DNA from: Kordia antarctica
Lineage (GTDB): Bacteria > Bacteroidota > Bacteroidia > Flavobacteriales > Flavobacteriaceae
Direction: 5' to 3'
Assembly (NCBI RefSeq): GCF_009901525.1
Contig: NZ_CP019288.1
Span: forward strand, 3,563,501 to 3,627,500
DNA: 64,000 bases
Part shown: positions 8,521 through 63,318 of the stretch, in pieces
Numbering within the stretch: position 1 is the stretch's first letter
Layout: every line of letters begins with the position of its first letter
Made by a program: the position numbers and the translations under genes
Notes under the pieces: generated by a model
The model's input: only the letters and a program-made list of their open reading frames with translations
Databases searched by the model: none
What the model was told of the DNA's origin: nothing

Positions 8521-9387
8521 ATGGATACGAAAGAGTTACTTAAAAAAGTACGAAAAATAGAAATCAAAACGCGCCGATTGAGCGATCATATTTTTGGAGG
8601 AGAATATCATTCTACCTTCAAAGGAAGAGGTATGACGTTTAGCGAAGTGCGTCAGTATCAATTTGGTGACGATGTACGAAATATTGATTGGAATGTAACC
8701 GCGCGTTATAACGAACCGTTTATAAAAGTTTTTGAAGAAGAACGCGAATTGACAATGATGTTAATGGTTGATGTTTCTGGTTCAGAATTATTTGGAACGA
8801 ATACGCAATTTAAAAACGAAACAATCACAGAAATTTCGGCAACGTTGGCGTTTTCAGCAATGCAAAACAATGATAAAGTCGGACTGATTCTATTTTCAGA
8901 CGAAATTGAATTATACATTCCGCCGAAAAAAGGAAAATCACATGTATTGCGCATTATTCGTGAACTGTTAGAATTTACACCGAAAAGTACCAAAACAGAC
9001 ATTTCGCAAGCACTAAAATTCTTGTCGAGCGTAATGAAGAAAAAAGCAATCGTATTTATGCTTTCAGATTTTATTGCAGATGAATACGAACAAACTTTAA
9101 AAATTTCGGCAAAACGACATGATCTTACGGGAATCAGAATCTATGACAAACGCGAAGAGGAAATTCCAAACTTAGGAATGGTGCAAATGGAAGATTCCGA
9201 AACAGGCGAAACCATGTTAGTCAATACAAGTTCAAAAACGGTACGAACCAACTATACAAAATTCTATCAAAGCAAAGTAAACTACTTTCAAGAATTATTT
9301 TCAAGAAGTGGCGCAGGCGCATTAAGTACACGAGTTGACGAAAGTTACGTGAAAAAACTATTAGGCTATTTTAAAAGAAGAGGCTAA
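8521..9387 (+). CDS. DUF58 domain-containing protein
   Basis: A 288-residue cytoplasmic protein with the DUF58 hallmark FGDDVRNIDWNVTARYNEPFIKVFEEERE, directly followed by a VWA-like fold start, LMVDVSGSELFG (a DxSxS metal site). DUF58 genes nearly always follow moxR in Bat/aerotolerance operons. The protein is thought to be a MoxR partner, but its biochemical role is not established. It is followed by the next gene after 4 nt, indicating co-transcription. The length is normal for the family. Confidence 0.88.
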   Translation: MDTKELLKKVRKIEIKTRRLSDHIFGGEYHSTFKGRGMTFSEVRQYQFGDDVRNIDWNVTARYNEPFIKVFEEERELTMMLMVDVSGSELFGTNTQFKNETITEISATLAFSAMQNNDKVGLILFSDEIELYIPPKKGKSHVLRIIRELLEFTPKSTKTDISQALKFLSSVMKKKAIVFMLSDFIADEYEQTLKISAKRHDLTGIRIYDKREEEIPNLGMVQMEDSETGETMLVNTSSKTVRTNYTKFYQSKVNYFQELFSRSGAGALSTRVDESYVKKLLGYFKRRG

Positions 9388-45023: not shown

Positions 45024-46256
45024 TTAATGTTCATTCAATCTAAAATCTGGATACGCATCCATTCCATGTTCATGTGCATCCAGCCCTTCTAATTCTTCTT
45101 TTTCCGAAACTCGAATACCTATTGTTTTTTTCAAGGCAAATATGATTAAAAAGGAAGAACCTATGCATATTGCGGCATACGATACGACTCCAATTAATTG
45201 GCTTACAAATTGTGCGCCACCTGCTAGATTTCCAAAAAGACCAACAGCCAAAGTTCCCCAGATTCCACAAACTAAATGTACAGCAATAGCTCCTACAGGA
45301 TCATCTAATTTTAATCGATCAATGAGCGATACTGCAAATACAATAATTGCACCAGCTATTGCTCCAATTATGATAGCGTCTGTTGGACTCATTTGATCTG
45401 CACCAGCAGTGATTCCTACTAATCCTCCTAAAATACCATTTAAAAACATGGTTAAGTCTAGGTTTTTATATCTTAAAGTAGATACCAAAGCTGCTACAAC
45501 GCCACCAGCTGCGGCTGCCAAACACGTTGTTGTTAAAGTTAAAGATGTCGCTTCAGGATCTGCGGATAATACAGAACCACCATTAAATCCAAACCAACCT
45601 AACCAAAGAATTAGAACTCCGGCAGTTGCCAACGGAATGTTGTGTCCGGGAATTGCTTGTATTTTTCCTTCTTTAAACTTTCCAATTCTAGCACCTAATA
45701 AGCAAACCGCTACTAAAGCTGCCCAACCACCAACAGAATGTACCAAGGTTGAACCCGCAAAATCATAAAATGGAGTGTCTAAAGTTTGTAAAAATCCGCC
45801 GCCCCATTTCCACGAACCAGCAATTGGATAAATAAATCCTACATATATAATTGTAAAAATCATAAAAGCCCCAATTTTCATTCGTTCCGCAACGGCACCA
45901 GAAACAACAGTAGCTGCTGTGGCTGCAAACATTCCTTGAAATAAAAAGTCAGTCCAATACGTATATCCTTCATTGTATGCTAAGTCTAAAGTGCCTTCGG
46001 TTGTTAGCGGAGCATCTAATCCAAAGCCAGCAAAACCTATAACTCCATTAAATTCTCCCGGATACATTAAGTTAAATCCAACCAGGCAATAAAGTAACAA
46101 TCCAACCGTAATGATAAATATATTTTTGAACAGAATGTTTATTGTATTTTTTTGTCTTGTCAACCCTATTTCTAAAAATGCAAATCCTAAATGCATAAAG
46201 AACACAAGTGCTGTACAGATCATCATCCATACATTATTGATAGTTAATAATTCCAT
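45024..46256 (-). CDS. amtB: Ammonium transporter
   Basis: A 410-residue inner-membrane ammonium channel of the Amt/MEP/Rh family with about 11 helices. It shows the family signature DFAGSTLVHSVGGWAALV with the first pore His, and AVHLVCGIWGTLAVGLFG with the second. The N-terminus is FMHLGFAFLEIGLTRQKN (family AGFxxLExGxxRxKN). It lies 17 nt downstream of the PII gene, the usual pairing, in which PII can plug the channel. The C-terminal tail is acidic. Confidence 0.95.
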   Translation of the reverse strand: MELLTINNVWMMICTALVFFMHLGFAFLEIGLTRQKNTINILFKNIFIITVGLLLYCLVGFNLMYPGEFNGVIGFAGFGLDAPLTTEGTLDLAYNEGYTYWTDFLFQGMFAATAATVVSGAVAERMKIGAFMIFTIIYVGFIYPIAGSWKWGGGFLQTLDTPFYDFAGSTLVHSVGGWAALVAVCLLGARIGKFKEGKIQAIPGHNIPLATAGVLILWLGWFGFNGGSVLSADPEATSLTLTTTCLAAAAGGVVAALVSTLRYKNLDLTMFLNGILGGLVGITAGADQMSPTDAIIIGAIAGAIIVFAVSLIDRLKLDDPVGAIAVHLVCGIWGTLAVGLFGNLAGGAQFVSQLIGVVSYAAICIGSSFLIIFALKKTIGIRVSEKEELEGLDAHEHGMDAYPDFRLNEH

Positions 46257-48094: not shown

Positions 48095-51000
48095 ATGTTA
48101 AAGAAACAAGGACTCTATTTACCAGAATTTGAACACGATAATTGCGGCGCAGGATTTATATGCAGTTTAACTGGAAAACGGTCTAATGATATCATTCACA
48201 AAGCACTTGAAATTTTAGTAAAACTAGAACATCGTGGAGCAGTGAGTTCCGATGGTGTAACTGGAGATGGCGCAGGTATTTTAATTGATATTCCACACAA
48301 GTTTTTCAAAATATTTTGCGAGTTCGATTTACCTGAAGCTGGAGAATATGCCGTGAGTAATGTATTTCTTCCTAAAAAAGAGAATCAGCGTCAATATTGT
48401 ATAGATGTCTTTGAAAAAGAAATTAAAAATCAAGGTTTAAAACTTATTGGCTGGAGAGATGTTCCAGTAAACAGTAAAGTGTTAGGCGAAATTGCCAAAG
48501 TAACTGAACCTTTTGTAAAGCAGATTTTTATAAGGAAAAATAACGATAAGCAAACAGATAGAGAATTTAATTTAAAATTATTTGCAGCGCGTAAAATTGC
48601 AGAACATACTATATATGGTTCTAAATTATCGGAAGCTCAGTTCTTTTACCTTCCGAGTTTATCAACAAAAATTATAATATTTAAAGGGCTTTTAATGCCT
48701 GAACATATAAATGAGTACTATCTTGATTTATTCAATTCAGCTTTAGATACACGATTAGCATTGGTTCACCAACGTTTTTCTACCAACACATTTCCAACCT
48801 GGGATTTAGCACAACCGTTTAGATACATTTGCCATAATGGCGAAATAAATACGGTAAGAGGTAATGTTTCAAGAATGTTTTCTCGTGAAGAAATTATGGA
48901 AAGCCCATTATTTGGAGACGACATTAAAAAGATAATCCCAACCGTTTTAAAAGGAAAATCAGATTCTGCAACCTTAGATATGGTCGTAGAATTATTATTA
49001 ATGACAGGTCGTTCGCTTCCAGAAGCAATGATGATGTTAGTGCCAGAAGCTTGGGAGAAAAATCCAAACATGTCGGATGCTAAAAAAGCATTCTACGAAT
49101 TTAATTCATGCTTAATGGAACCTTGGGACGGACCAGCTTCTATTCCATTTACAGACGGTAATTTTATCGGAGCTGTTTTAGACAGAAATGGTTTGCGTCC
49201 TTCACGTTACACAGTGACAAAAAAAGGAAACGTGATTATGTCTTCAGAGACTGGAGTTGTAGATATAAAGCCTGAAAACATTGAATATCATGGTCGATTA
49301 GAGCCAGGGAAAATGTTTTTGGTAGACATGAATGAAGGTAGAATTGTAAATGATGAAGAAATAAAAGAAGAAATAGCTTCAAGACATCCGTATCGTAAAT
49401 GGTTAGATGAAAATTTAGTTCACTTGCGTGATCTTAAAGCAAAAAAAGGACATATTGATTATGATGAAATTGCCCTAAAAAAGCGTGAAGTTATTTTTGG
49501 ATATACGGAAGAAGACTTAAACACTATTATTCGCCCTATGGCACAATTGGGTAAAGAACCTATTGGATCTATGGGAAGCGATACGCCAATTGCAGTTTTA
49601 TCTGAGCGTCCACAATTAATTTACAACTACTTCAAACAAATATTTGCGCAAGTTACCAATCCGCCTTTAGATGGAATTCGTGAAGAATTAGTAACAGATA
49701 TCAGTTTAACCTTAGGAAGCGATGTCAATATCTTCGACGTTAATGCAGAACATTGTAAAAAACTAAAAATACAGAATCCAGTAATTTCAAAGCACGATTT
49801 AGATAAAATAAGAGATTACGATACAAATCCTGACTTTAAAATCGAATCTATTTCCATGTTATATGAAGTAAATCGTGGATTAAATCAATTAGAAGTTGCG
49901 CTTGAAGGCTTAGTAACTCAAGCGTCGAAAGCAATTGATGAAGGTGCAAATATCATTATCCTTTCGGATAGATATGTAGATAAAGATCATGCGCCAATTC
50001 CAGCATTATTAGCATGTTCTTATTTAAACCATGCGTTACACAAACTAGAAAAACGCTCAAGAATTAGTTTAATTATAGAATCTGCCGAACCTCGAGAAGT
50101 ACATCATTTCGCCTTACTATTTGGTTATGGAGCAAGTGCTGTGAATCCTTATATAGTAAACGAAATTGTTCAGAAACAAATAGACGATTCAGATCTAACG
50201 GATTTAGAATACTTAGCAGCAATCAAAAATTACAACAAAGCTGTCGGGAAAGGCATCTTAAAAGTGATGAACAAAATTGGGATTTCAACACTAAACTCGT
50301 ATCGTGGTTCGCAACTATTTGAATGTATTGGAATCAACACAAAAACAGTTGAAAAATACTTTCCAAACACACCAACCCGGATTCAAGGTATTGGCTTGCG
50401 CGAGATAGAACAAGAAATTGTAAAGCGTCATAAAAAAGCATTTCAAGCAAATGAGGCAAATATAGACATTGAAATTGGAGGCGAATACAGATGGAGGCGT
50501 GGACAGGAAAAACACATGTTCAATCCGTTAACGGTTGCCAAATTACAAGAATCTGTTCGAACAAACAAAGCATCAACATTTAAAGAATTTTCAGATTTGG
50601 TAAACAACCAATCAGAGCAATTAATGACTATTAGAGGTTTATTCGAATTCGATCAATTTGATCCAATTCCAATAGAAGAAGTAGAACCTTGGACAGAAAT
50701 TGTAAAACGTTTCAAAACTGGAGCGATGTCTTACGGCTCTATTAGTAAAGAAGCGCACGAAAATTTAGCAGTAGCGATGAACAGAATTGGAGGAAAATCT
50801 AATTCTGGCGAAGGTGGAGAAGATCAAGAACGTTTCTATAAAAGTTCGCAAGGCGATTGGAAAAACTCTGCCATCAAACAAGTGGCTTCAGGTCGTTTTG
50901 GTGTAACATCAAACTACTTAACAAGTGCCAGTGAAATTCAAATAAAAATTGCACAAGGCGCAAAACCTGGTGAAGGCGGGCAATTACCTGGACCAAAGGT

Positions 51001-52594
51001 GAATAAAGAAATTGCAAAAACAAGAAACTCTACGCCATATGTAGGTTTAATTTCTCCGCCACCACATCACGATATTTATTCAATTGAAGACTTATCGCAA
51101 CTAATATATGATGTAAAATCGGCAAACAGAACTGCGAGAATCAATGTAAAACTTGTATCAGAAATTGGTGTAGGTACTGTTGCAGCAGGAGTTGCCAAAG
51201 CAAAAGCAGATGTAATTTTAATTGCTGGTTTTGATGGCGGAACAGGCGCAACACCTCTAACATCACAAAAACATGCAGGTTTACCGTGGGAATTAGGAAT
51301 TGCTGAAGCACAACAGACGTTGGTAATGAACGATTTAAGAAATAGAATTGTTTTAGAATGTGATGGACAATTAAAAACTGGTCGAGATGTAGCAATTGCT
51401 TGTTTGCTAGGCGCAGAAGAATTTGGTTTTGCAACGGCTCCATTAGTTGCTTCAGGTTGTATAATGATGCGAGTTTGTCACTTAAATACGTGTCCTGTTG
51501 GAATTGCAACGCAAAATCCTGAATTGCGTAAAAAATTCAAAGGAAAACCAGAACATGTAGTGAACTATATGTATTTCGTAGCACAAGAATTACGCGAAAT
51601 TATGGCGAAACTTGGGTTTAGAACGATCAATGAAATGGTTGGACAATCTCAAAAACTAAACAGAAACAAAGCAATAGATCATTACAAAGCTTCTGGGCTC
51701 GATTTATCACCAATATTACACAAAGTAGAAGTTGCTGACGATGTAAAATTATACAACACATATTGTCAAGATCATAACTTGAATGTGCATTTAGATTTCA
51801 AGATTATTAAACAAGCGCATCAAGCGTTATTTCGAAGACAAAAAACGAATTTAAAAATGCCTATCACCAATATTGATAGAGCAGTTGGAGCTGTAGTAAG
51901 TAACGAAATCTCTAAAATTTACGGAGCTGAAGGTTTGCCAGATGACACCATAAATATTGATTTTACAGGTTCTGCGGGACAAAGTTTTGGAGCATTTGCC
52001 ACCAAAGGATTATCCTTTACAGTTCATGGAAACACAAACGATTACTTAGGAAAAGGTTTATCTGGAGCAAAATTAATCATCAAAGTACCAGAAAAATGTA
52101 CGATTATTCCAGAAGATAACATCATTACTGGAAACGTAACCTTATATGGAGCAACCTCTGGTGAAGTGTACATAAACGGAAAAGCAGGTGAACGTTTTTG
52201 TGTTCGGAACTCTGGTGCAAAAGCAGTTGTAGAAGGAATTGGAGATCATGGTTGCGAATACATGACTGGTGGAATTGCAGTAATTCTTGGCGAAGTTGGA
52301 CGAAACTTTGGCGCAGGAATGAGTGGCGGAATTGCCTATGTTTTAGATAAAGATGGAACCTTCAAACAAAACTGTAATGCAGACGATTTAAACATTGATC
52401 CAATAAGCAATGTTGATGACGAATTGCAGTTAGAACAACTGATAGAAAATCATTTTCAAGCAACTGGAAGTCCATTGGCAAGACGCATTTTAGATAACTG
52501 GAAAACAGTGCTTCCAAAATTTAAAAAAGTAGTACCAGAAGAGTACAGACAAGCTTTAGTGAGATTAGAACAAGAAAAATTAGAAACAGCTTAA
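48095..52594 (+). CDS. gltB: Glutamate synthase large subunit
   Basis: A 1499-residue amidotransferase/synthase that with GltD converts glutamine plus 2-oxoglutarate to two glutamates. A 16-residue propeptide precedes the nucleophile Cys17 (NCGAGFICSL), which becomes the mature N-terminus. The glutaminase domain (17-430) has HQRFSTNTFPTWDLAQPFR. The FMN-binding synthase domain (about 800-1200) has GGEDQERF, GAKPGEGGQLPG and GGTGATPL. The 3Fe-4S cysteines are Cys1122, Cys1128 and Cys1133. A C-terminal beta-helix (GXGXG) domain has the usual Gly-rich repeats. gltD follows after 3 nt. Confidence 0.97.
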   Translation: MLKKQGLYLPEFEHDNCGAGFICSLTGKRSNDIIHKALEILVKLEHRGAVSSDGVTGDGAGILIDIPHKFFKIFCEFDLPEAGEYAVSNVFLPKKENQRQYCIDVFEKEIKNQGLKLIGWRDVPVNSKVLGEIAKVTEPFVKQIFIRKNNDKQTDREFNLKLFAARKIAEHTIYGSKLSEAQFFYLPSLSTKIIIFKGLLMPEHINEYYLDLFNSALDTRLALVHQRFSTNTFPTWDLAQPFRYICHNGEINTVRGNVSRMFSREEIMESPLFGDDIKKIIPTVLKGKSDSATLDMVVELLLMTGRSLPEAMMMLVPEAWEKNPNMSDAKKAFYEFNSCLMEPWDGPASIPFTDGNFIGAVLDRNGLRPSRYTVTKKGNVIMSSETGVVDIKPENIEYHGRLEPGKMFLVDMNEGRIVNDEEIKEEIASRHPYRKWLDENLVHLRDLKAKKGHIDYDEIALKKREVIFGYTEEDLNTIIRPMAQLGKEPIGSMGSDTPIAVLSERPQLIYNYFKQIFAQVTNPPLDGIREELVTDISLTLGSDVNIFDVNAEHCKKLKIQNPVISKHDLDKIRDYDTNPDFKIESISMLYEVNRGLNQLEVALEGLVTQASKAIDEGANIIILSDRYVDKDHAPIPALLACSYLNHALHKLEKRSRISLIIESAEPREVHHFALLFGYGASAVNPYIVNEIVQKQIDDSDLTDLEYLAAIKNYNKAVGKGILKVMNKIGISTLNSYRGSQLFECIGINTKTVEKYFPNTPTRIQGIGLREIEQEIVKRHKKAFQANEANIDIEIGGEYRWRRGQEKHMFNPLTVAKLQESVRTNKASTFKEFSDLVNNQSEQLMTIRGLFEFDQFDPIPIEEVEPWTEIVKRFKTGAMSYGSISKEAHENLAVAMNRIGGKSNSGEGGEDQERFYKSSQGDWKNSAIKQVASGRFGVTSNYLTSASEIQIKIAQGAKPGEGGQLPGPKVNKEIAKTRNSTPYVGLISPPPHHDIYSIEDLSQLIYDVKSANRTARINVKLVSEIGVGTVAAGVAKAKADVILIAGFDGGTGATPLTSQKHAGLPWELGIAEAQQTLVMNDLRNRIVLECDGQLKTGRDVAIACLLGAEEFGFATAPLVASGCIMMRVCHLNTCPVGIATQNPELRKKFKGKPEHVVNYMYFVAQELREIMAKLGFRTINEMVGQSQKLNRNKAIDHYKASGLDLSPILHKVEVADDVKLYNTYCQDHNLNVHLDFKIIKQAHQALFRRQKTNLKMPITNIDRAVGAVVSNEISKIYGAEGLPDDTINIDFTGSAGQSFGAFATKGLSFTVHGNTNDYLGKGLSGAKLIIKVPEKCTIIPEDNIITGNVTLYGATSGEVYINGKAGERFCVRNSGAKAVVEGIGDHGCEYMTGGIAVILGEVGRNFGAGMSGGIAYVLDKDGTFKQNCNADDLNIDPISNVDDELQLEQLIENHFQATGSPLARRILDNWKTVLPKFKKVVPEEYRQALVRLEQEKLETA

Positions 52595-52597
52595 GAC

Positions 52598-54064
52598 ATG
52601 GGAAAGATAACAGGATTTTTAGAGCATAAGCGTCAAGACGAAAGTTACATTGCGCCAGAAAAGCGTATTGAAAACTATAAAGAATTTACAATTCCGTTAG
52701 AAGAACAAAAGCTAAAAGACCAAGGCGCGCGTTGCATGGATTGCGGAATTCCGTTTTGTCATAGCGGTTGTCCGTTGGGTAATTTCATTCCAGATTTTAA
52801 CGATAAAGTATACAAAGGCAAATGGAAAGATGCTGCCGAAATTTTACACAAAACGAATAACTTTCCTGAATTTACGGGTCGTTTATGTCCTGCGCCTTGT
52901 GAAGAAGCGTGTGTATTAGGCATCAATTCAGATCCTGTAACTATTGAAAACATTGAAAAAAATATTGTAGAAACCGCTTTCGCTGAAGGTTGGATAGTTG
53001 CAAACCCACCAAGCGTACGAACTGAAAAATCGGTTGCAGTCATTGGCTCAGGTCCAGCTGGTTTGGCGGCGGCACAACAACTAAATCGTGCAGGTCATTC
53101 AGTCACTGTTTATGAACGCGATGAAAAAGTTGGCGGATTATTACGCTACGGAATTCCAGATTTCAAAATGGAAAAAAGCGTCATTGATCGTCGTGTAAAA
53201 GTATTAGAAGATGAAGGAATCAATTTCAAAACAAACGCGCATGTTGGTGTAAATGTTGATGCAACACAACTAAAAGAAGATTTTGATGCTGTTGTTCTTT
53301 GTGGTGGCGCAACAATTCGACGCACAATTCCAGTTGCTGGAGCAGATGCAAAAGGCGTTTACCAAGCAATGGATTTCTTAAAACAAAACAATCAATATGT
53401 AGATGGTTTGGTTGATTTTGATCAAATAATCTCAGCAAAAGGCAAAAACGTAATTGTCATTGGTGGTGGCGATACAGGTTCGGATTGTATCGGAACGAGC
53501 AATCGTCATGGTGCAACATCGGTTACAAACTTTGAAATATTGAACAAACCAACGGTTGGTCGTCCTGCGCATCAACCTTGGCCGTATTGGCCTATGAAAC
53601 TCAAAGCAACATCATCTCACAAAGAAGGTGTGGAACGGTTTTTTAGTGTTTCCACAAAAGAATTTATAAGTGATGAAAAAGGAAATCTTACAGGTTTAAA
53701 AACGGTACAAGTGGAATGGATTTTCAAAGAAGGCGAACGACCGCAACTAAAAGAAGTTCCGAATACAGAAAAACATTGGGATTGTGATTTAGTACTACTA
53801 GCATTAGGATTTACAGGCGCAGAAAAAACATTGGCAGACGAATTTGGTTTAGAAATGGATTTCAGAAATAATATCAAAGCCACGACAAAAAACTACGCAA
53901 CAAATGTTTCGGGAGTATTCGCGGCTGGCGATATGCGCAGAGGACAATCGTTAATCGTTTGGGCAATTTCGGAAGGTCGCCAAGCGGCACATCATGTGGA
54001 TGCTTTCTTGATGGGAAATTCTAATTTGCCTTTGAAAGATGATAGTGATTTGCCTAGGGTTTAG
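52598..54064 (+). CDS. gltD: Glutamate synthase small subunit
   Basis: A 488-residue NADPH-dependent flavoprotein that feeds electrons to GltB. N-terminal cysteine clusters CMDCGIPFCHSGCPLG and CPAPCEEAC bind two 4Fe-4S centres. The FAD-binding motif is VIGSGPAGLAAAQQLNRAG, and the NADPH-binding motif is VIGGGDTGSDCIGT. The C-terminal GVFAAGDMRRGQSLIVWAI segment is conserved. It is co-transcribed with gltB. Confidence 0.97.
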   Translation: MGKITGFLEHKRQDESYIAPEKRIENYKEFTIPLEEQKLKDQGARCMDCGIPFCHSGCPLGNFIPDFNDKVYKGKWKDAAEILHKTNNFPEFTGRLCPAPCEEACVLGINSDPVTIENIEKNIVETAFAEGWIVANPPSVRTEKSVAVIGSGPAGLAAAQQLNRAGHSVTVYERDEKVGGLLRYGIPDFKMEKSVIDRRVKVLEDEGINFKTNAHVGVNVDATQLKEDFDAVVLCGGATIRRTIPVAGADAKGVYQAMDFLKQNNQYVDGLVDFDQIISAKGKNVIVIGGGDTGSDCIGTSNRHGATSVTNFEILNKPTVGRPAHQPWPYWPMKLKATSSHKEGVERFFSVSTKEFISDEKGNLTGLKTVQVEWIFKEGERPQLKEVPNTEKHWDCDLVLLALGFTGAEKTLADEFGLEMDFRNNIKATTKNYATNVSGVFAAGDMRRGQSLIVWAISEGRQAAHHVDAFLMGNSNLPLKDDSDLPRV

Positions 54065-54185: not shown

Positions 54186-55058
54186 ATGGGAAAGAAAGCA
54201 ACCACCGTAAAAGAACAAATAGACATTCTAAAAGAAAGAGGAATGAATTTTGATTGTGGAATAGATAAAGCTGAAGAAATGCTTTTAGATATAGGTTATT
54301 ATAGACTTGGGTTTTATTGGTACCCATTCGAAATAGACAAAGAACATAATTTCAAAGAAGGAACTATATTTTCAAATGTCATTAACCTTTATTACTTAGA
54401 TGTTGATTTAAGGAATGTTTTACTAAAATATTTAAAACGTATAGAAGTAAATTTTAGAACTAAAATTATTTATTATACTTGTAACAAATATATTGAAGAC
54501 CCAATATGGTATTCTAATCCGAAAATAATGGCTTATTGGTTTATTACTAAATTAGATGTGAATCTATATACAGATAAATTTAAAGAAGAAAATAAACAAA
54601 TAAAACTACATCATGTAAATAACCGAAATGATATATATGCGCCTACTTGGAAAACTTTTGAATTTCTGACTTTTGGAGCAATTGTCACTATTTTTAATGC
54701 ATTAAAAAATGAAGAGTTAAAAAAAGAAATTTCAAAACTTTACGGATTAAATAATCTTAATACATTTATAAATTTCGTCCATACCATAAAATTTATTCGA
54801 AATATTTGTGCACATGCAGGAGTTTTATTTGATTTAAATTTTCCACAAGGAATATACAAAATCCCTAGAGTAAAGTTTAATAACAACAACAACCAATCTT
54901 TGGATGCGGGAATAAAAACAATGTCGTTTATTTTAAAAAATATTTCTGAGGACAGAAATTCTGATATGAATACTGAAATAGACGACTTATTTAAAGAGCA
55001 TACTAATAATGAAATACTCAAAGAAATAATTATCAATAAAATTGGCTACAATATATAA
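54186..55058 (+). CDS. Abi_2 family abortive infection protein (AbiD/AbiF-like, HEPN)
   Basis: A 290-residue protein with the Abi_2 N-terminal pattern ILKERGM...AEEMLLDIGYYRLGFYWYPFE (about 13-48) and a HEPN-type Rx4H motif RNICAH (Arg205-His210) that forms the RNase active site in related proteins. It looks AT-rich compared with the flanking gltD and ilv genes, suggesting horizontal gain. No antitoxin protein is adjacent. Instead a candidate structured RNA with its own promoter and terminator begins at the gene's end. The likely role is phage-triggered abortive infection through RNA cleavage (family knowledge plus inference). Confidence 0.8.
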   Translation: MGKKATTVKEQIDILKERGMNFDCGIDKAEEMLLDIGYYRLGFYWYPFEIDKEHNFKEGTIFSNVINLYYLDVDLRNVLLKYLKRIEVNFRTKIIYYTCNKYIEDPIWYSNPKIMAYWFITKLDVNLYTDKFKEENKQIKLHHVNNRNDIYAPTWKTFEFLTFGAIVTIFNALKNEELKKEISKLYGLNNLNTFINFVHTIKFIRNICAHAGVLFDLNFPQGIYKIPRVKFNNNNNQSLDAGIKTMSFILKNISEDRNSDMNTEIDDLFKEHTNNEILKEIIINKIGYNI

Positions 55059-55162: not shown

Positions 55163-55526
55163 GTTTCCAATGTAAGTAATATACATTCCTGAAAACAAAG
55201 TTTTCAGTATATGAATCAACTTCTGAACAGATTGAGAAATACGTTTGGTGCCACCGTGTATAATTTTTTCTTACTTTTCTCCTACTCACAAAAGCCCTCA
55301 CGAATTTTCTATTCAGTATCTATTCGCTAAATGCGACAAAAAAACCCTCTAATTACAACATATGTACTTTATTTTGTGTTTTTGGTACATATAATACATA
55401 CGTGAGATAAAATGCACCCTATAAAAAACCTTGATAAATTACCTCTAAAAGGACACAAACAGAACCATCTTTCTCAAACAAAAATTTGGAATCTAAAAAA
55501 ACTTTTCTAATATTTGGTCTAACAAA
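55163..55526. other. Spacer between the abi RNA and the ilv leaders
   Basis: No gene is supported here. It holds a perfect hairpin CTGAAAAC-AAA-GTTTTCAG (55189-55207) without a T-run, and an AT-rich stretch (55365-55410) that may contain the ilv promoter, though no clean TAnnTTTG/TTG pair is visible. Confidence 0.5.
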
Positions 55527-55589
55527 ATGAACAAACAAAATATCAATATCATTTCTATCAATATAATTGTGATTCACTCACAACGATAA
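55527..55589 (+). CDS. ilv leader peptide 1 (Ile-rich)
   Basis: A 20-codon ORF starting at ATG 55527 after an A-rich leader (AACAAA). It encodes MNKQNINIISINIIVIHSQR, with eight residues being Ile or Val (seven Ile, one Val), then TAA at 55587-55589. The stop codon forms part of the antiterminator strand. This is the classic layout of a branched-chain amino acid attenuator. The peptide itself needs no function. Confidence 0.75.
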   Translation: MNKQNINIISINIIVIHSQR

Positions 55590-55639
55590 GGAATGCATAT
55601 AAAAATTTAACTATAAATTTACAAAGCCTTCCTTAATCG
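55584..55639 (+). promoter_or_regulatory. Antiterminator of ilv attenuator 1
   Basis: CGATAAGGAA (55584-55593), which spans the leader stop, can pair with TTCCTTAATCG (55629-55639) with one bulged A. That pairing uses TTCC of the terminator's left arm, so the two structures exclude each other. A ribosome finishing the leader would cover the left strand and favour termination; a ribosome stalled at Ile codons would leave it free. Confidence 0.7.
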
Positions 55640-55653
55640 GGAAGGCTTTTTTT
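55623..55653 (+). terminator. Terminator of ilv attenuator 1
   Basis: AAAGCCTTCC (55623-55632) pairs with GGAAGGCTTT (55640-55649) around a 7-nt loop, followed by a T-run to 55653. It lies 33 nt after the stop of leader peptide 1. Confidence 0.85.
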
Positions 55654-55742
55654 AGTGAAACTCAGTTTCGAGAAGCCTGAAGGGCGCACACAAAACTGTA
55701 AGTTGAACTAATCCCGCTGAAAAGCGGGATCTCAAAGTTTAA
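55654..55742 (+). repeat. Covarying hairpin repeat, copy 3, between the two attenuators
   Basis: It starts AGTGAAACTCAGTTTCGAGA directly after the T-run of attenuator 1 and matches 26001-26085. The central hairpin is ATCCCGCT-GAAA-AGCGGGAT, compared with ACTCCGTT-GAAG-AACGGAGT in copies 1 and 2; three base pairs differ by compensatory changes. Confidence 0.75.
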
Positions 55743-55761
55743 AACATTTAGAACAAAAAAC

Positions 55762-55809
55762 ATGAATACTATTATTGTCATCGTCATCATCATTATAAAC
55801 TCATCCTAA
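55762..55809 (+). CDS. ilv leader peptide 2 (Ile/Val-rich)
   Basis: A 15-codon ORF starting at ATG 55762 after AACAAAAAAC. It encodes MNTIIVIVIIIINSS, with nine consecutive Ile/Val codons (55771-55797), and stops with TAA at 55807-55809. The unbroken run of Ile (ATT, ATC, ATA) and Val (GTC) codons is a textbook control region for attenuation by branched-chain aminoacyl-tRNA supply. Confidence 0.88.
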   Translation: MNTIIVIVIIIINSS

Positions 55810-55853
55810 GTTGATACAATTCGCTATATAAAAATAAAAGCCTGTATCAATTA
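55807..55853 (+). promoter_or_regulatory. Antiterminator of ilv attenuator 2
   Basis: TAAGTTGATACA (55807-55818), beginning with the leader stop codon, can pair with TGTATCAATTA (55843-55853) with one bulged G. This uses TGTATC of the terminator's left arm, so antiterminator and terminator cannot coexist. The geometry is the same as in attenuator 1. Confidence 0.78.
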
Positions 55854-55870
55854 CGATACAGGCTTTTATT
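55836..55870 (+). terminator. Terminator of ilv attenuator 2
   Basis: AAAAGCCTGTATC (55836-55848) pairs perfectly over 13 bp with GATACAGGCTTTT (55855-55867) around a 6-nt loop, ending in a T-rich tract. It lies 26 nt after leader peptide 2 and about 220 nt before ilvD. Confidence 0.9.
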
Positions 55871-56091
55871 ATGAAAAAAATCAACCGTTGAACATCGTAT
55901 TTAAGAACAATCAAAACATTGAATATCAAATGATTAGACAGTAAAAACAACAATTGGTTTTAGGGGAATAACTAAAATCAAACACAAAAAAGAAACACAA
56001 AAAACTAATTTAGAGCCTTAGTAGCCACGCACAGACAGTATACAAATAAAAAGTACTATGCAAACGCTCCAAAAAACTATCAAAAAGCAGT

Positions 56092-57771
56092 ATGAATACC
56101 TTAAATAAATACAGTAAAACAGTCACACAAGATCCTACGCAACCTGCCGCGCAAGCTATGTTGCACGCAATCGGGTTGACGAAAGAAGACTTTTTCAAAC
56201 CCATTATCGGAATTGCAAGTACAGGATACGAAGGAAATCCATGTAACATGCACCTAAACGACTTGGCAAAGTTGACAAAACAAGGAACGAAAAATCAAGA
56301 TATCATTGGATTAATATTTAATACAATTGGTGTAAGCGACGGAATCTCTATGGGAACTCCAGGAATGAGGTATTCGTTGCCTTCGCGCGATATCATTGCA
56401 GATTCTATGGAAACGGTTGTGCAAGCAATGAGTTACGACGGACTAATTACGGTTGTTGGTTGTGACAAAAATATGCCTGGCGCATTAATGGCAATGATTC
56501 GTTTAAATCGTCCAAGTATTTTAGTTTACGGCGGAACGATTGATTCTGGTTGTCACAATGGAAAAAAACTCGATGTTGTCTCTGCTTTTGAAGCTTGGGG
56601 AAGCAAAGTTGCGGGTACAATGGACGAAACAGAATATCAAAACATTGTTGAAAAAGCCTGTCCTGGTGCTGGCGCTTGTGGCGGAATGTACACTGCAAAC
56701 ACCATGGCTTCTGCAATAGAAGCGTTAGGAATGACATTACCATTCAACTCGTCAAATCCTGCATTGAGTGATGCAAAAAAGCAAGAATCAATTGCGGCTG
56801 GTGAAGCAATGCGTTTATTACTTGAAAAAGATATCAAACCATCGGACATTATCACACGAAAATCGTTGGAAAATGCAATCCGATTAATCACTATTCTTGG
56901 CGGATCAACCAATGCAGTATTACACTTTTTGGCAATTGCCAGAGCCGCACAAATAGATTTCACACTAAAAGACTTTCAGCAAATAAGCGATACAACTCCA
57001 TTTCTTGCCGATCTAAAACCAAGCGGAAAATATCTCATGGAAGATGTACACGCTATTGGCGGAATTCCTGCAGTATTAAAATATTTACTCAAAAAAGGAT
57101 TACTTCATGGCGATTGTTTAACCGTTACCGGAAAAACCATTGCTGAAAACCTATTAGATGTTGACGATTTAAAAGAAGGTCAAGATGTAATCAGATCGAT
57201 TGAAAACCCAATCAAAATATCTGGACACTTACGCATGTTATATGGAAACCTGGCAACGGAAGGAAGTGTTGCCAAAATCACGGGAAAAGAAGGTCTTTCT
57301 TTTAAAGGAAAAGCAAAAGTATTTGAAAGTGAATACGAAGCAAATGACGGAATCCGTGATGGAAAAGTAGAAAAAGGCGATGTAGTTGTCATTCGGTACG
57401 AAGGCCCAAAAGGTGGTCCAGGAATGCCAGAAATGCTAAAACCAACCGCTGCAATAATGGGCGCAGGTTTAGGAAAAGATGTCGCACTTATTACTGACGG
57501 ACGATTTTCAGGCGGAACACACGGTTTTGTGGTCGGGCATATTACACCAGAAGCACAAGAAGGCGGAACGCTCGCATTAGTAAAAGATAATGATATTATC
57601 ACAATTGACGCAGAAACAAATTCAATTCAACTAGAAGTATTTGAAGAAGAACTGCAAGAACGTAGAAAACAATGGAAAGCACCAGAACTCAAATTTGAAC
57701 GCGGTGTTTTATACAAATATGCAAAAACAGTTTCATCAGCATCAAAAGGATGTGTTACTGACGAGTTTTAA
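56092..57771 (+). CDS. ilvD: Dihydroxy-acid dehydratase
   Basis: A 559-residue iron-sulfur enzyme of valine/isoleucine synthesis that dehydrates 2,3-dihydroxy-3-methyl acids. Key sites are visible: [11 protein letters not shown] (first Cys), [13 protein letters not shown] (second), [26 protein letters not shown] (third) and [16 protein letters not shown] at the C-terminal active site. Length is normal. It is the first structural gene after the tandem attenuators, with a 221-nt unstructured leader following the second terminator. Confidence 0.97.
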
Positions 57772-57857: not shown

Positions 57858-59591
57858 ATGCAGACAAAAACCATACAAAATACTCAAAAGGCAGTTCAAA
57901 AAACAGAACGCATCTCAGGAAGCGAAGCCGTTGTACGCTGTTTATTAGCAGAAGGCGTAGACATACTTTACGGATATCCAGGCGGCGCAATTATGCCTAT
58001 TTATGATGAATTATACAAATATCAAGACAAAATTCATCACGTGCTTACGCGTCACGAACAAGGTGCAACACATTCCGCACAAGGATATGCGCGAATCTCA
58101 GGAAAAGTTGGAGTCGCTATGGCAACTTCTGGTCCAGGCGCAACCAATCTAATCACAGGAATTGCAGATGCACAAATAGATTCCACGCCAATGGTGTGTA
58201 TTACTGGTCAAGTAGCTTCACACTTATTAGGAAGTGATGCTTTTCAGGAAACTGATATTGTCGGAATCTCAACGCCAGTAACCAAATGGAATCATCAAAT
58301 TACGAAAGCATCTGAAATTCCAGAAGTTTTGGCAAAAGCATTTTACATTGCAAAAAGCGGTCGTCCAGGACCAGTTTTAATCGACATTACGAAAGATGCG
58401 CAATTTGAAGAATTCGATTTCTCATACAAAAAATGTACAGGCGTTCGTAGTTACAAACCTGTTCCGGAAACTGATCCTAATTCATTAAAAGCTGCCGCTG
58501 AATTAATAAATAACGCAAAAAAACCACTCGTAGTTTGGGGACAAGGCATCATTTTAAGCGAAGCAGAAGAAGCGTTTAAAGCATTCATTGAAAAAGCAGG
58601 AATTCCGTCAGCATGGACAATTTTAGGTGTTTCGGCAATTCCAACAGAACATCCGTTAAATGTCGGAATGTTAGGAATGCACGGAAATTATGCGCCAAAT
58701 GTATTAACCAATGAATGCGATGTACTAATTGCAATTGGAATGCGTTTTGACGATCGTGTAACAGGAAATTTAGACAAATATGCGAAGCAAGCTAAAGTGA
58801 TTCACTTTGAAATTGATCCTGCTGAGGTTGATAAAAATGTAAAAACAGATGTTGCAATTTTAGGCGATGCGAAAGCGAGTTTAGAATCAATATTACCATT
58901 AATCAATAAAAATTCACATCCAGATTGGCATCAAAAATTCAAGGATTTATATGCGATTGAATATGAAAAAGTCATCAAACATGATTTGCATCCAACGAAA
59001 GAAGGATTGACAATGGGCGAAGTATTGCATCAAATAAATCTAGAAAGTAAAGGTGAAGCGGCAATTGTTTCTGATGTTGGACAACACCAAATGATTGCGT
59101 GTCGCTATGCAAAATTCAATCAAACAAAAAGTAACATAACTTCTGGCGGATTAGGAACGATGGGATTTGGATTGCCAGCCGCAATTGGCGCAAAAATGGC
59201 AGCTCCGGAACGACAAGTTGTTTCTATTTCTGGAGATGGCGGTTACCAAATGACGATTCAGGAATTAGGAACTATTTTTCAGCAAAAAACGGCGGTTAAA
59301 ATTGTGGTTTTGAATAATGATTTCTTAGGAATGGTACGTCAATGGCAACAACTATTTTTTGACAAACGCTATGCATCAACTGAAATGACGAATCCCGATT
59401 TTGTAGCCATTGCCAAAGGATATTATATAAACGCACGACGCGTAACCAAACGAGAAGAATTAGCGGAAGCGGTAAAAGAAATGATGCAAAGTAAAGAAGC
59501 ATATTTCTTAGAAGTTTGTGTAGAAAAAGAAGGAAATGTATTTCCAATGGTTCCATCAGGAGCATCGGTTTCGGATATACGATTGAGTTAA
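57858..59591 (+). CDS. ilvB: Acetolactate synthase large subunit, biosynthetic
   Basis: A 577-residue ThDP enzyme condensing pyruvate with pyruvate or 2-oxobutyrate. It has the N-terminal PYR domain with GVDILYGYPGGAIMPIYDELY, the catalytic Glu in TRHEQGATHSAQGYAR, a FAD-associated central domain, and the ThDP motif GDGGYQMTIQELGTI...NNDFLGMVRQWQ. It is biosynthetic (AHAS) rather than catabolic, judging from the paired ilvN and the Gly-Met-Val-Arg-Gln-Trp motif. Confidence 0.96.
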   Translation: MQTKTIQNTQKAVQKTERISGSEAVVRCLLAEGVDILYGYPGGAIMPIYDELYKYQDKIHHVLTRHEQGATHSAQGYARISGKVGVAMATSGPGATNLITGIADAQIDSTPMVCITGQVASHLLGSDAFQETDIVGISTPVTKWNHQITKASEIPEVLAKAFYIAKSGRPGPVLIDITKDAQFEEFDFSYKKCTGVRSYKPVPETDPNSLKAAAELINNAKKPLVVWGQGIILSEAEEAFKAFIEKAGIPSAWTILGVSAIPTEHPLNVGMLGMHGNYAPNVLTNECDVLIAIGMRFDDRVTGNLDKYAKQAKVIHFEIDPAEVDKNVKTDVAILGDAKASLESILPLINKNSHPDWHQKFKDLYAIEYEKVIKHDLHPTKEGLTMGEVLHQINLESKGEAAIVSDVGQHQMIACRYAKFNQTKSNITSGGLGTMGFGLPAAIGAKMAAPERQVVSISGDGGYQMTIQELGTIFQQKTAVKIVVLNNDFLGMVRQWQQLFFDKRYASTEMTNPDFVAIAKGYYINARRVTKREELAEAVKEMMQSKEAYFLEVCVEKEGNVFPMVPSGASVSDIRLS

Positions 59592-59822: not shown

Positions 59823-60353
59823 ATGGAAAAAGAAACAAAACAATTTACGGTTTCGGTGTATACCGAAAATAATATAGGATTGTTGAACAGAATTTCAGCA
59901 ATCTTCCAACGAAGACACATCAATATAGAAAGTATCAATTCGTCTGTTTCAGAAATTGAAAGCGTTTCAAGATGGACATTAGTGGTCAATCTCTCGGAAG
60001 AGCAAATGAAAAAAATCATTGGTCAAATTGATAAGCAAGTTGAAGTCATTAAAGCGTATTATCACACAGAAGAAGAAATTATCTATCAAGAATCTTGCAT
60101 TTTTAAAATGAGGTCAGATTTATTGTTTGATGAACGCCAAATTCAAAACATCATCAAAGATAGCAATGCACGAATTGTCACCGTAAACAGGGACTTTTTT
60201 GTCATTGAAAAATCGGGGAGAAAAGAAGAAATAGAAATGTTACAAAGAGAATTAAGCGTCTTTGGAATCATGCAATTTACACGCTCAGGGCGAATTTCGG
60301 TTTCCAAAGATGAAATGAAAATATCAAAGATGTTGGAAACATTCAATCATTAA
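59823..60353 (+). CDS. ilvN: Acetolactate synthase small (regulatory) subunit
   Basis: A 176-residue protein with an N-terminal ACT domain (FTVSVYTENNIGLLNRISAIFQRRHINIESINSS) that binds valine for feedback control, and a C-terminal ALS_ss_C-type domain. I chose the ATG at 59823 (MEKETKQFTVSVYTENN) since the in-frame extension to 59766 is unrelated spacer sequence. It lies between ilvB and ilvC. Confidence 0.93.
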   Translation: MEKETKQFTVSVYTENNIGLLNRISAIFQRRHINIESINSSVSEIESVSRWTLVVNLSEEQMKKIIGQIDKQVEVIKAYYHTEEEIIYQESCIFKMRSDLLFDERQIQNIIKDSNARIVTVNRDFFVIEKSGRKEEIEMLQRELSVFGIMQFTRSGRISVSKDEMKISKMLETFNH

Positions 60354-60417: not shown

Positions 60418-61917
60418 ATGTCAAATTACTTCAACACACTATCATTACGAGATCAATTAGCGCAATTAGGAAAATGTAGATTTATGAATGCTTCCGAGTT
60501 TGAAGATGGCGTAAAAGCACTCAACGGAAAAAAAATTGTCATTGTTGGTTGTGGCGCACAAGGTTTGAATCAAGGATTAAATATGCGCGATTCAGGATTG
60601 GATATTTCATACGCATTACGACAAGCCGCTATTGACGAACAACGCGCTTCGTATGAAAACGCAACGTCAAATGGTTTCAAAGTTGGGACCTACAAACAAT
60701 TAATTCCAACTGCAGATTTAGTATTGAATTTGACGCCAGATAAACAACATACTTCGGTTGTAAAAGCGGTGATGCCATTAATGAAAAAAGGAGCAACGTT
60801 GAGTTATTCTCACGGTTTTAATATTGTGGAAGAAGGAACTCAAATTCGTAAAGATATTACGGTAATTATGGTCGCGCCAAAATGTCCTGGAACGGAAGTT
60901 AGAGAAGAATATAAACGTGGTTTTGGAGTGCCAACTTTAATTGCGGTGCATCCTGAAAACGATCCAGAAAACAAAGGTTGGACGCAAGCAAAAGCATATG
61001 CAGTTGCAACTGGCGGACACAAAGCTGGCGTACTTGAATCTTCTTTTATTGCAGAAGTGAAAAGTGATTTAATGGGCGAACAAACTATTCTTTGTGGTTT
61101 ATTACAAACTGGTGCGATTTTATCTTTTGACAAAATGGTTGAAAAAGGAATTGAACCTGGTTATGCCGCAAAACTAATCCAGTTTGGTTGGGAAACGATC
61201 ACGGAAGCGTTGAAACATGGCGGAATTACCAATATGATGGATCGGTTATCGAATCCTGCAAAATTAAAAGCTTTTGAATTATCTGAAGAATTAAAAACGA
61301 TCATGCGTCCATTATTTGAAAAGCATATGGATGATATCGTTTCAGGTCATTTCTCAAAAACAATGATGGAAGATTGGGCAAATGATGATAAAAACTTATT
61401 ACAATGGCGCGCTGCAACTGGCGAAACTGCGTTTGAAAAAACAGGCTTGACAATCGATCATATTACGGAACAAGAATATTTTGATCATGGTGTATTATTG
61501 GTTGCTTTTGTAAAATCGGGTGTGGAATTAGCGTTTGAAACGATGGTAAGTGCTGGAATTATTGAAGATTCTGCGTATTACGAGTCGCTTCATGAGTTAC
61601 CGCTTATCGCGAATACAATTGCTAGAAAGAAGCTTTTTGAAATGAATCGTGTGATTTCTGATACAGCTGAATATGGTTGTTATTTATTCGATCATGCATG
61701 TAAACCATTGTTGGTTGATTTTATGAAAGACGTTTCTACGGAAGTAATAGGAAAATCATTTTCAGATACAAACGGAGTAGACAATTTAGACTTAATTGAA
61801 GTGAATGATGCGATTCGAAATCATCCGATAGAAGCTGTTGGAAAACGATTGAGAGCAGCAATGACGGCGATGAAAACGATTAAAACAACGAATACGAAAA
61901 ACCCTGTAAAAGTTTAG
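60418..61917 (+). CDS. ilvC: Ketol-acid reductoisomerase (class II)
   Basis: A 499-residue NADPH- and Mg2+-dependent enzyme. The Rossmann motif is [18 protein letters not shown] (Gly44, Gly46, Gly49). The length and a duplicated knotted C-terminal domain mark the long, class II form (as in E. coli IlvC), not the 330-residue class I form. Metal ligands are expected in the D-x3-E segment of [14 protein letters not shown] 64-nt purine-rich spacer separates it from ilvN. Confidence 0.96.
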
Positions 61918-62052: not shown

Positions 62053-63318
62053 TTGCAAACAACAATAAAAACATACACACCAACATTAGCAGCCGTAAAA
62101 TCTGCCGCAAAAACACTCAAAGGAATTGCCTCGGTAACACCTTTGAGTTATAACGAGCATTATTCCAAACAATGGAATTGCAACGTGTTTTTAAAGCGAG
62201 AAGATTTGCAGCAAGTACGATCTTACAAAATTAGAGGTTCGTACAATAAAATTTCTTCGTTGACAGCAACACAAATAGAAAACGAAATTGTGTGTGCAAG
62301 TGCTGGAAATCATGCGCAAGGTGTTGCGTTATCATGTAAGTTATTAAAAATAAAAGGCACAATTTTTATGCCAATGCCAACATCAAGTCAAAAGATTGAA
62401 CAAGTAAAAATGTTTGGTGAAGAATATGTTGAGGTTGTATTAGTAGGCGATACTTTTGACGATGCGTATCATGCGGCAATGCTGGAATGTGAACGACTGA
62501 ACAAAACTTTTATTCATCCGTTTAACGATGAAAAAGTAATTGAAGGTCAAGCCACTATTGGATTGGAGATTTTAAAACAGACAGAAAATCCAATTGATTA
62601 TGTTTTTGTACCTGTTGGCGGCGGCGGATTGTCCGCTGGATTATCTTCCGTGTTTAAAATGCTATCTCCAACTACAAAAATTATTGGCGTAGAACCAAAA
62701 GGCGCGCCTTCTATGTCTACATCGATTCAGAATGATAGAAATACAACGTTAAAAAACATTGAAAATTTTGTAGATGGCGCGGCAGTAAAACGTGTTGGAG
62801 ATTTGAATTTTGCGATCTGTAAAGAAAATTTATACGACATGATTACGGTTGATGAAGGCAATGTATGTCAAACCATTTTAGATTTATATAACAAACAAGC
62901 TATTGTAGTTGAGCCTGCTGGAGCTTTAAGCCTTGCTGCATTATCGCAATATGCCGAAAAAATAAAAGGTAAAAATGTAGTGTGTGTTGTTAGCGGAGGC
63001 AATAACGATATTACACGAACGGCAGAAATTAAAGAACGTGCATTATTGTATGCAAACTTAAAACATTATTTCATTATCAAATTTCCACAACGTGCAGGCG
63101 CATTGCGTGAATTTTTGGCAGAAATTTTAGGTCCAACAGACGATATTACACATTTTGAATATACCAAAAAAACCAATCGCGAAAAAGGTGCGGCAGTCGT
63201 TGGTTTGCAATTAAAAAATGCAGGCGATTTAGAAGCGCTCATCACCAAAATGAAATTGCGTGATTTTTATGGCGATTACTTAAATGACAAACCCGATTTG
63301 TTTCAATTTTTAGTTTAA
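62053..63318 (+). CDS. ilvA: Threonine ammonia-lyase (threonine deaminase)
   Basis: A 421-residue PLP enzyme making 2-oxobutyrate for isoleucine. PLP-binding Lys59 lies in [19 protein letters not shown]. The [15 protein letters not shown] and [13 protein letters not shown] phosphate loops are present. A C-terminal ACT-like regulatory domain (about 330-420, [20 protein letters not shown]) is a single copy, shorter than E. coli IlvA. The start is a TTG at 62053; no ATG in frame fits. It is the last gene of the ilv operon. Confidence 0.94.

Follow-up and report, generated by a model that had tools for sequence, protein, structure and literature searches.

The region in front of ilvD in the flavobacterium Kordia antarctica raises the question whether a single operon can be placed behind two leader-peptide attenuators that respond to the same amino acid. 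Textbook attenuation provides one gate per operon: In the enteric ilv, trp and his systems, a leader ORF rich in codons for the product and four RNA regions (1-4) with mutually exclusive pairings are followed by a terminator located before the first biosynthetic gene. An earlier inspection of a 64-kb stretch of K. antarctica DNA (64,000 nucleotides, hereafter the window), made from the letters alone and referred to below as the sequence-only reading, had proposed two such units in tandem upstream of ilvD. The candidate leader region (55485-56092) is situated between an Abi_2-family gene and ilvD; the assignment of the latter was borne out by the present analysis, with ilvB, ilvN, ilvC and ilvA following downstream in this order (see Table 1 for all coordinates). 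The Abi_2-family (abortive-infection-like) gene itself (54186-55058) separates the ilv leader from the glutamate synthase genes (48095-54064). All 10 genus mates carried the branched-chain aminotransferase gene ilvE in the interval from the second gate to ilvD (recognized by a profile match in one of them and by a motif in all 10); the corresponding interval of the window (55870-56092) contained no ilvE, and in the window's own genome the ilvE_I family gave no match above the cut-off and three weaker ones only.

Table 1. Position of the leader elements, the ilv genes and further detector matches within the window (position 1 is the first nucleotide of the 64-kb stretch).
Feature	Position	Strand	Basis or remark
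Probable promoter P1: TTTG 55485-55488, -7 box AATATTTG 55509-55516 (5/6 consensus letters)	55485-55516	+	alignment and box counts
Leader ORF 1, MNKQNINIISINIIVIHSQR and stop codon	55527-55589	+	counterpart in 10/10 genus mates
Region 1 of attenuator 1, Asn-Ile-Ile-Ser codons (codons 7-10)	55545-55556	+	fold; pairs with region 2
Region 2 of attenuator 1, ATAAGGAATGCATAT	55586-55600	+	overlaps leader stop codon
Terminator 1, regions 3 and 4 with T tract, CCTTCC type	55623-55653	+	
Dispersed-repeat copy between the attenuators, 92 bp, strong hairpin	55654-55745	+	38 matches in the genome, this one included
Leader ORF 2, MNTIIVIVIIIINSS and stop codon	55762-55809	+	
Region 2 of attenuator 2, contains TTGATACA at 55811-55818	55808-55820	+	
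Terminator 2, regions 3 and 4, CCTGTATC type	55833-55870	+	
Conserved element E3: TTGAACATCGTA 55888-55899; imperfect palindrome ~55911-55936; -7-like box TAATTTAG 56006-56013	55888-56013	+	
ilvD	56092-57771	+	
ilvB, acetolactate synthase large subunit	57858-59591	+	three TPP-enzyme domains; gene name inferred
ilvN, acetolactate synthase small subunit	59823-60353	+	
ilvC	60418-61917	+	
ilvA, threonine dehydratase	62053-63318	+	
Other Ile/Val/Leu detector match	2292-2381	+	
Other Ile/Val/Leu detector match	60677-60778	-	
Other Ile/Val/Leu detector match	45878-45973	-	
Other Ile/Val/Leu detector match	9221-9322	-	

Two Ile-rich ORFs, each with a strong T-tailed hairpin behind it, were present before ilvD as the sequence-only reading had stated. 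Both are short leader ORFs with a codon run for the product of the operon (the nine consecutive Ile/Val codons claimed for leader 2 were confirmed by translation), and one intrinsic terminator per leader, predicted from sequence and folding, is placed between leader and first gene. The coordinates given earlier for hairpin 1 were correct (stem 55623-55649, T tract to 55653; -15.4 kcal/mol, z -4.34), whereas hairpin 2 (-22.3 kcal/mol, z -9.39) starts three bases further to the left, at 55833 instead of 55836; its exact stem pattern has a single occurrence in the 5.5-Mb genome. The mutually exclusive structures postulated at the leader stop codons have their counterpart in competing pairings that are far better than those of shuffled strands: TAAGGAA with TTCCTTA in attenuator 1 (-10.8 kcal/mol versus -3.2 when region 2 was shuffled; equalled by 2 of 100 shuffles) and TTGATACA with TGTATCAA in attenuator 2 (-11.7 kcal/mol versus -3.8; 0 of 100). 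In each unit, region 2 is positioned at or just after the stop codon, and its pairing with region 3 (2:3) is exclusive with the terminator stem (3:4).

The same design was recovered beyond the window. For the 2:3 pairing, 109 of the 151 modules from the window and its relatives were within the best 5% of shuffles. Region 2 paired more stably with its own region 3 than with the arms of other loci (-11.03 versus -7.58; Wilcoxon p 6e-21, the rows being related) and, in 54 of 60 comparisons, better within its own gate than across the two gates of a locus. Within types (type 1, CCTTCC stem; type 2, CCTGTATC stem), the own-versus-swapped test was weak for arms without loop (p 0.023 for type 1 and 0.5 for type 2) and yielded p 1.4e-8 and 0.0013, respectively, for arms with loop. 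The duplex between leader and region 2 (1:2) was likewise better than codon shuffles across the relatives of both types (p 2e-13 and 2e-11); in the window, it reached -11.7 kcal/mol for leader 1 (versus -6.1 for shuffles; 0 of 100 as good) and was no better than shuffled for leader 2 (63 of 100 as good).

The comparison comprised 214 regions, i.e. the window, 80 loci of named genomes, 10 genus mates and 123 further genera of the family, each represented by a single genome (169 family genomes were searched; ilvD was found in 129, the window's own included, and five of the other 128 were unusable). A leader detector applied to these ilvD-upstream stretches in trimmed form returned a single module in 94 and at least two in 30, while 90 had none. 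Because Ile codons occur frequently in AT-rich DNA, triplets in AT-rich intergenic sequence next to ordinary terminators might imitate leaders by chance; the reverse strand of the real stretches, a control that is not clean, gave a module in 20 of 214 (17 with one, three with two or more). Such a chance origin is nevertheless refuted by the shuffles, by the residue-set controls and by the conservation across genera, and we accord it next to no probability: Five sets of dinucleotide shuffles contained one module in seven of 1070 stretches and two in none, and 12 other residue triples of similar frequency produced one module in 2-13 of the 214 stretches and never two. Within the 64-kb window, the detector listed four other ATG-started Ile/Val/Leu-rich ORFs before a hairpin, all with weaker hairpins. 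A T-box or another catalogued RNA was rejected as an explanation, as no Rfam family, those for amino-acid leaders included, was matched at gathering score anywhere in the window.

Both gates appear to read the same signal. In the tandem loci, the first leaders consist of 33% Ile, 11% Val and 4.5% Leu, the second ones of 40% Ile, 11% Val and 3.5% Leu. The mixed Asn/Ile codons that the sequence-only reading had noticed in leader 1 are present, but the Asn and Ser codons need not constitute a second signal, because codons 7-10 form region 1, which pairs with region 2; this 1:2 pairing is a likely reason for their presence. Across 11 genomes, the leader 1 codons displayed 132 synonymous and 244 replacement differences (35% synonymous, versus 22% for random single changes), with codons 1, 4, 8, 9, 14, 15, 16 and 18 being invariant: The selection on leader 1 is a mild constraint only. 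Two further leaders of the same design, each with one terminator, were detected in the K. antarctica genome, namely a His leader (HHHH; MSFTQLHHHHFHTGYQAS; L255:1466-1582) before hisG and a Trp leader (WWW; MKLNLVNTWWWNLRTKKS; L258, reverse strand) before a gene whose start matches trpE (trpE-like by profile). These single attenuators support the interpretation of the ilv leaders as attenuators. The detector found no leader-plus-terminator before two thrA-like genes; among the loci examined (his, trp and these two thrA-like genes), the doubling is special to ilv.

Two adjacent modules, defined by ATG-started ORFs in both and a second ATG 0-350 nt past the first hairpin, were observed in 34 of the 214 regions. 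Besides the window, these comprise all 10 genus mates, 14 of the 123 family genera and nine of the 80 named loci, with Gaetbulibacter, Tenacibaculum, Aquimarina, Lutibacter, Chryseobacterium and an Ignavibacteriae genome among the carriers. The sequence-only reading was right about the two gates, and the refutation it had named, relatives without the codon runs or the competing pairings, came out in its favor (all 10 genus mates keep both units); the arrangement it regarded as unusual is not unique to this species. In 26 of the 34 pairs, the CCTTCC-stem module precedes the CCTGTATC-stem module; none has the reversed order, and eight cannot be assigned to both types. The constant order and the common stems point to an ancient pair from which modules were later lost. 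On a tree of 119 ilvD proteins labeled for none, one or two gates (the labels were taken from the trimmed stretches and miss, e.g., two Chryseobacterium pairs), the tandem label needs 11 changes, eight of them forced by starred branches, a distribution too scattered to tell the loss of an old pair from repeated gains. The gain of a second gate by duplication apparently also occurs: Locus L231 carries two near-identical gates in a row (MTTYTNSIIISIIIRSTE, MPTYTNSIIISIIIRSIE), apparently as the result of a recent tandem duplication. Since 90 of the 214 stretches, close relatives such as Lacinutrix among them, hold no module, the system is dispensable.

The behavior of the gates was followed by ribosome-masked folding, in which the nascent transcript was ended before region 4 and 31 nt were masked by the ribosome at each codon. 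Folding with and without masked leaders had been named by the sequence-only reading as a check of its proposal; in both window leaders, the antiterminator remained complete as long as the ribosome had not moved beyond the last Ile codon, and it had disappeared once the stop codon was reached. With the A site at codons up to Ile16, attenuator 1 formed 9-10 antiterminator pairs, followed by approximately 7 at His17, approximately 1 at Ser18 and 0 at stop; for attenuator 2, the values were approximately 8.9 up to Ile12, 6.8 at Asn13, 0.6 at Ser14 and 0 at stop. When a wider region 2 was considered, the second gate of the window kept 2.4 of 12.5 pairs (about a fifth) with the ribosome at the stop codon. 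The shortened transcript likewise favored 2:3 pairing without any ribosome. At equilibrium, both terminators were always preferred in the full transcript, and the switch must therefore be kinetic; the choice between the structures of enteric attenuators is kinetic as well. In the 34 tandem loci, the antiterminator was computed for 66 of 68 modules (the exceptions being the first modules of L038 and L044); in 56 of these 66, less than a quarter of it was left at the stop codon, and in 59 the switch boundary was located -1 to +2 codons from the last Ile/Val codon. The first ORF of L038 is probably no leader, so that the firm tandem count is 33 or 32 rather than 34.

These results also bear on the assumption that one gate works while the other is a relic in the course of being lost. 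Many related genera keep one unit only, either of the first type (Winogradskyella psychrotolerans, Meridianimaribacter) or of the second (Maribacter, Zobellia, Arenibacter), as would be expected from such a decay; the presence of both leaders and hairpins in 10 of 10 genus mates and the switching of both gates in masked folding, however, make a relic unlikely here.

The Bacteroidota -7 box has the consensus TAnnTTTG (PMC6847099, PMC9723704), and in F. johnsoniae transcripts start 4-5 nt past it (PMC6847099). If this spacing is applied to the position of the box in P1, the predicted start at ~55521 would leave leader 1 with a 5' UTR of about 6 nt. A -7 box (5 or 6 of 6 letters) was found 2-16 nt before 85 of 119 first leaders, at a distance of 4-11 nt in 76 of the 85; within tandem loci, 25 of 28 first leaders possessed it versus six of 30 second leaders (background: 355 of 1952 other ATGs). 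The box-to-ATG distance of 3-5 nt in 21 loci predicts about no 5' UTR at all, and leader 1 would be nearly leaderless. A Shine-Dalgarno site was not seen at the leaders, and sigma-70-type promoters did not exceed chance (37 found, 37.0 expected).

In 20 of the 34 tandem loci, the second ATG is positioned 10-34 nt past terminator 1. Given these short gaps and the box before the first but not the second leaders, one transcript must, in general, pass both gates; a separate promoter for each gate was rejected as the general case by the box counts and the gap lengths. It could still be argued that P1 feeds gate 1 and an inter-gate promoter feeds gate 2 alone, the gates being alternative instead of serial. 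The gap of 38-318 nt in the window and its genus mates would offer room for a promoter in most of them, and many type-2-only loci have, as judged by eye, a promoter-like box directly before the type-2 leader. The same counts, a good box at only six of 30 second leaders and the 20 closely spaced pairs, speak against two transcripts, as does the dispersed repeat that fills most of the window's own gap; with its 113 nt, this gap could accommodate a promoter, although the best box in it reaches 4/6. An arrangement with two transcripts is considered quite improbable. As to the repeat itself, three of the four distinct copies with a visible left flank start right after a T run, as if inserted behind terminators, and a copy follows terminator 2 in five of the 10 genus mates.

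Between terminator 2 and the first gene, a further conserved element (E3) was recognized, with the consensus TTGAACATCATA, the palindrome TAAAn4YTGn5CARn4TTTA, TTGRATTTAG and a -7-like box. Its first motif occurs in 66 of the 214 regions versus 1.2 expected from shuffles, namely in 40 of 135 with modules and 26 of 79 without; many Flavobacteriaceae carry the element ahead of their first ilv gene, with or without attenuators. An RNA structure was rejected for E3: RNAalifold gave no consensus fold of the core, the best-kept symmetric positions keep fixed letters, and the positions between them pair in less than half of 41 rows. E3 therefore looks more like a DNA site and represents a putative operator together with a second promoter, P2, the transcripts of which may bypass both gates; the gates need not control all transcription. 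It is conceivable, though we would not favor it, that the gates are real but minor, with P2 and a transcription factor at the palindrome mainly driving the operon and P1 providing a starvation boost, an explanation compatible with serial gates. The abundance of the E3 motif agrees with this idea, as does the finding that 19 of 22 type-2-only loci have a perfect -7 box 39-57 nt ahead of ilvD (null 4%). Against it stands the imperfect box of those E3 loci that are of the same kind as the window (perfect in one of 38, 5/6 in 24 of 38, with a chance of about 40% for 5 or better).

The ORFs, hairpins and alternative pairings, their conservation and order and the promoter placement, as established by sequence and comparison, are in our opinion best explained by two ribosome-mediated attenuators in series on one transcript, both of which would read charged tRNA-Ile and to some extent tRNA-Val (probability roughly 0.84). 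Architecture, codon content and promoter placement point to a pair of complete sensors, each with its own terminator, that serve one signal on one RNA. We infer leader translation, termination, relief on starvation and a multiplication of read-through: RNA polymerase would start at P1, about 6 nt before leader 1. With ample Ile, the ribosome would reach the stop codon and cover region 2, and terminator 1 would form; polymerases past terminator 1 would face the same decision again at leader 2 and terminator 2. With scarce Ile, the ribosome would wait on an Ile codon, regions 2 and 3 would pair before region 4 is made, and the polymerase would pass. Relief would be needed at both leaders for P1 transcription of ilvD-B-N-C-A. 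As read-through would be multiplied, less leakage and a steeper response are expected from two attenuators than from a single one.

In a wider sense, and with somewhat more confidence than doubt, the locus may be regarded as an old, conserved double gate for one amino acid, of fixed order and on one transcript, in which leader 1 is read by a ribosome entering at an almost leaderless 5' end and leader 2 by one that must enter internally, without Shine-Dalgarno site, just behind a terminator; it would act as a steep, low-leak isoleucine switch, the ribosome counterpart of pseudo-cooperative tandem riboswitches, with modules lost separately in many lineages. If true, the classic four-region mechanism works without Shine-Dalgarno site and with hardly any RNA ahead of the first leader, and this in a phylum with few mapped leaderless or near-leaderless transcripts: Their share is given as 5.5% (leaderless) in Flavobacterium psychrophilum (PMC9723704), and in B. 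thetaiotaomicron ~3.7% of the 5' UTRs are reported to be shorter than 10 nt (PMC7366714). Since versions of this operon with one gate and with two gates exist in nature, the gain in steepness would be directly measurable.

The K. antarctica units share with the enteric ilv, trp and his attenuators the leader ORF rich in product codons, the regions with exclusive pairings and the terminator ahead of the first gene; they differ from them in the serial arrangement of two units, the near-leaderless first leader (predicted), the absence of a visible Shine-Dalgarno site, the few Leu codons and the Bacteroidota promoter. Amino-acid attenuators were reportedly the subject of a comparative study by Vitreschak and colleagues in 2004. 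In a literature search with thin coverage of older work, no published pair of adjacent leader-peptide attenuators for the same amino acid was recognized, and nothing was found on a tandem T-box or thrZ precedent. For F. psychrophilum, a member of the same family, strong clues for leader-peptide attenuation before amino-acid biosynthesis operons have been presented (PMC9723704); the main text of that study mentions neither ilv nor isoleucine, and its passages covered here describe no tandem arrangement. The attenuator RNA of Sinorhizobium meliloti trpL is leaderless, beginning at the leader ATG (PMC7298713), but concerns Trp, an alphaproteobacterium and one leader ORF.

Tandem designs have been described for other signals. 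The Salmonella mgtCBR leader contains tandem attenuators for ATP and proline, called a singular example by its authors, who contrast it with a leader having two terminator sites (PMC3641672). It resembles the K. antarctica region in possessing two short ORFs in one leader, each tied to alternative RNA structures; its two signals are different, whereas both units described here are of the Ile/Val kind and each has its own T-tailed terminator. In the mefA/msrD macrolide resistance operon, mefA sits between the two attenuators. The authors interpret this pair as a double lock against basal expression (PMC10314930); its second attenuator regulates msrD exclusively, however, and an antibiotic acts as the signal. 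Riboswitches arranged in tandem for one ligand likewise consist of two complete sensors in series and are expected to give a pseudo-cooperative, steeper and more digital response (PMC9481103), the sensor being an RNA aptamer there and a translating ribosome here. Leader-peptide attenuation is known, including the clues in flavobacteria, and the new part would be the tandem pair for one signal; if this holds true, bacteria sharpen ribosome-sensed decisions by stacking, as described for the tandem riboswitches.
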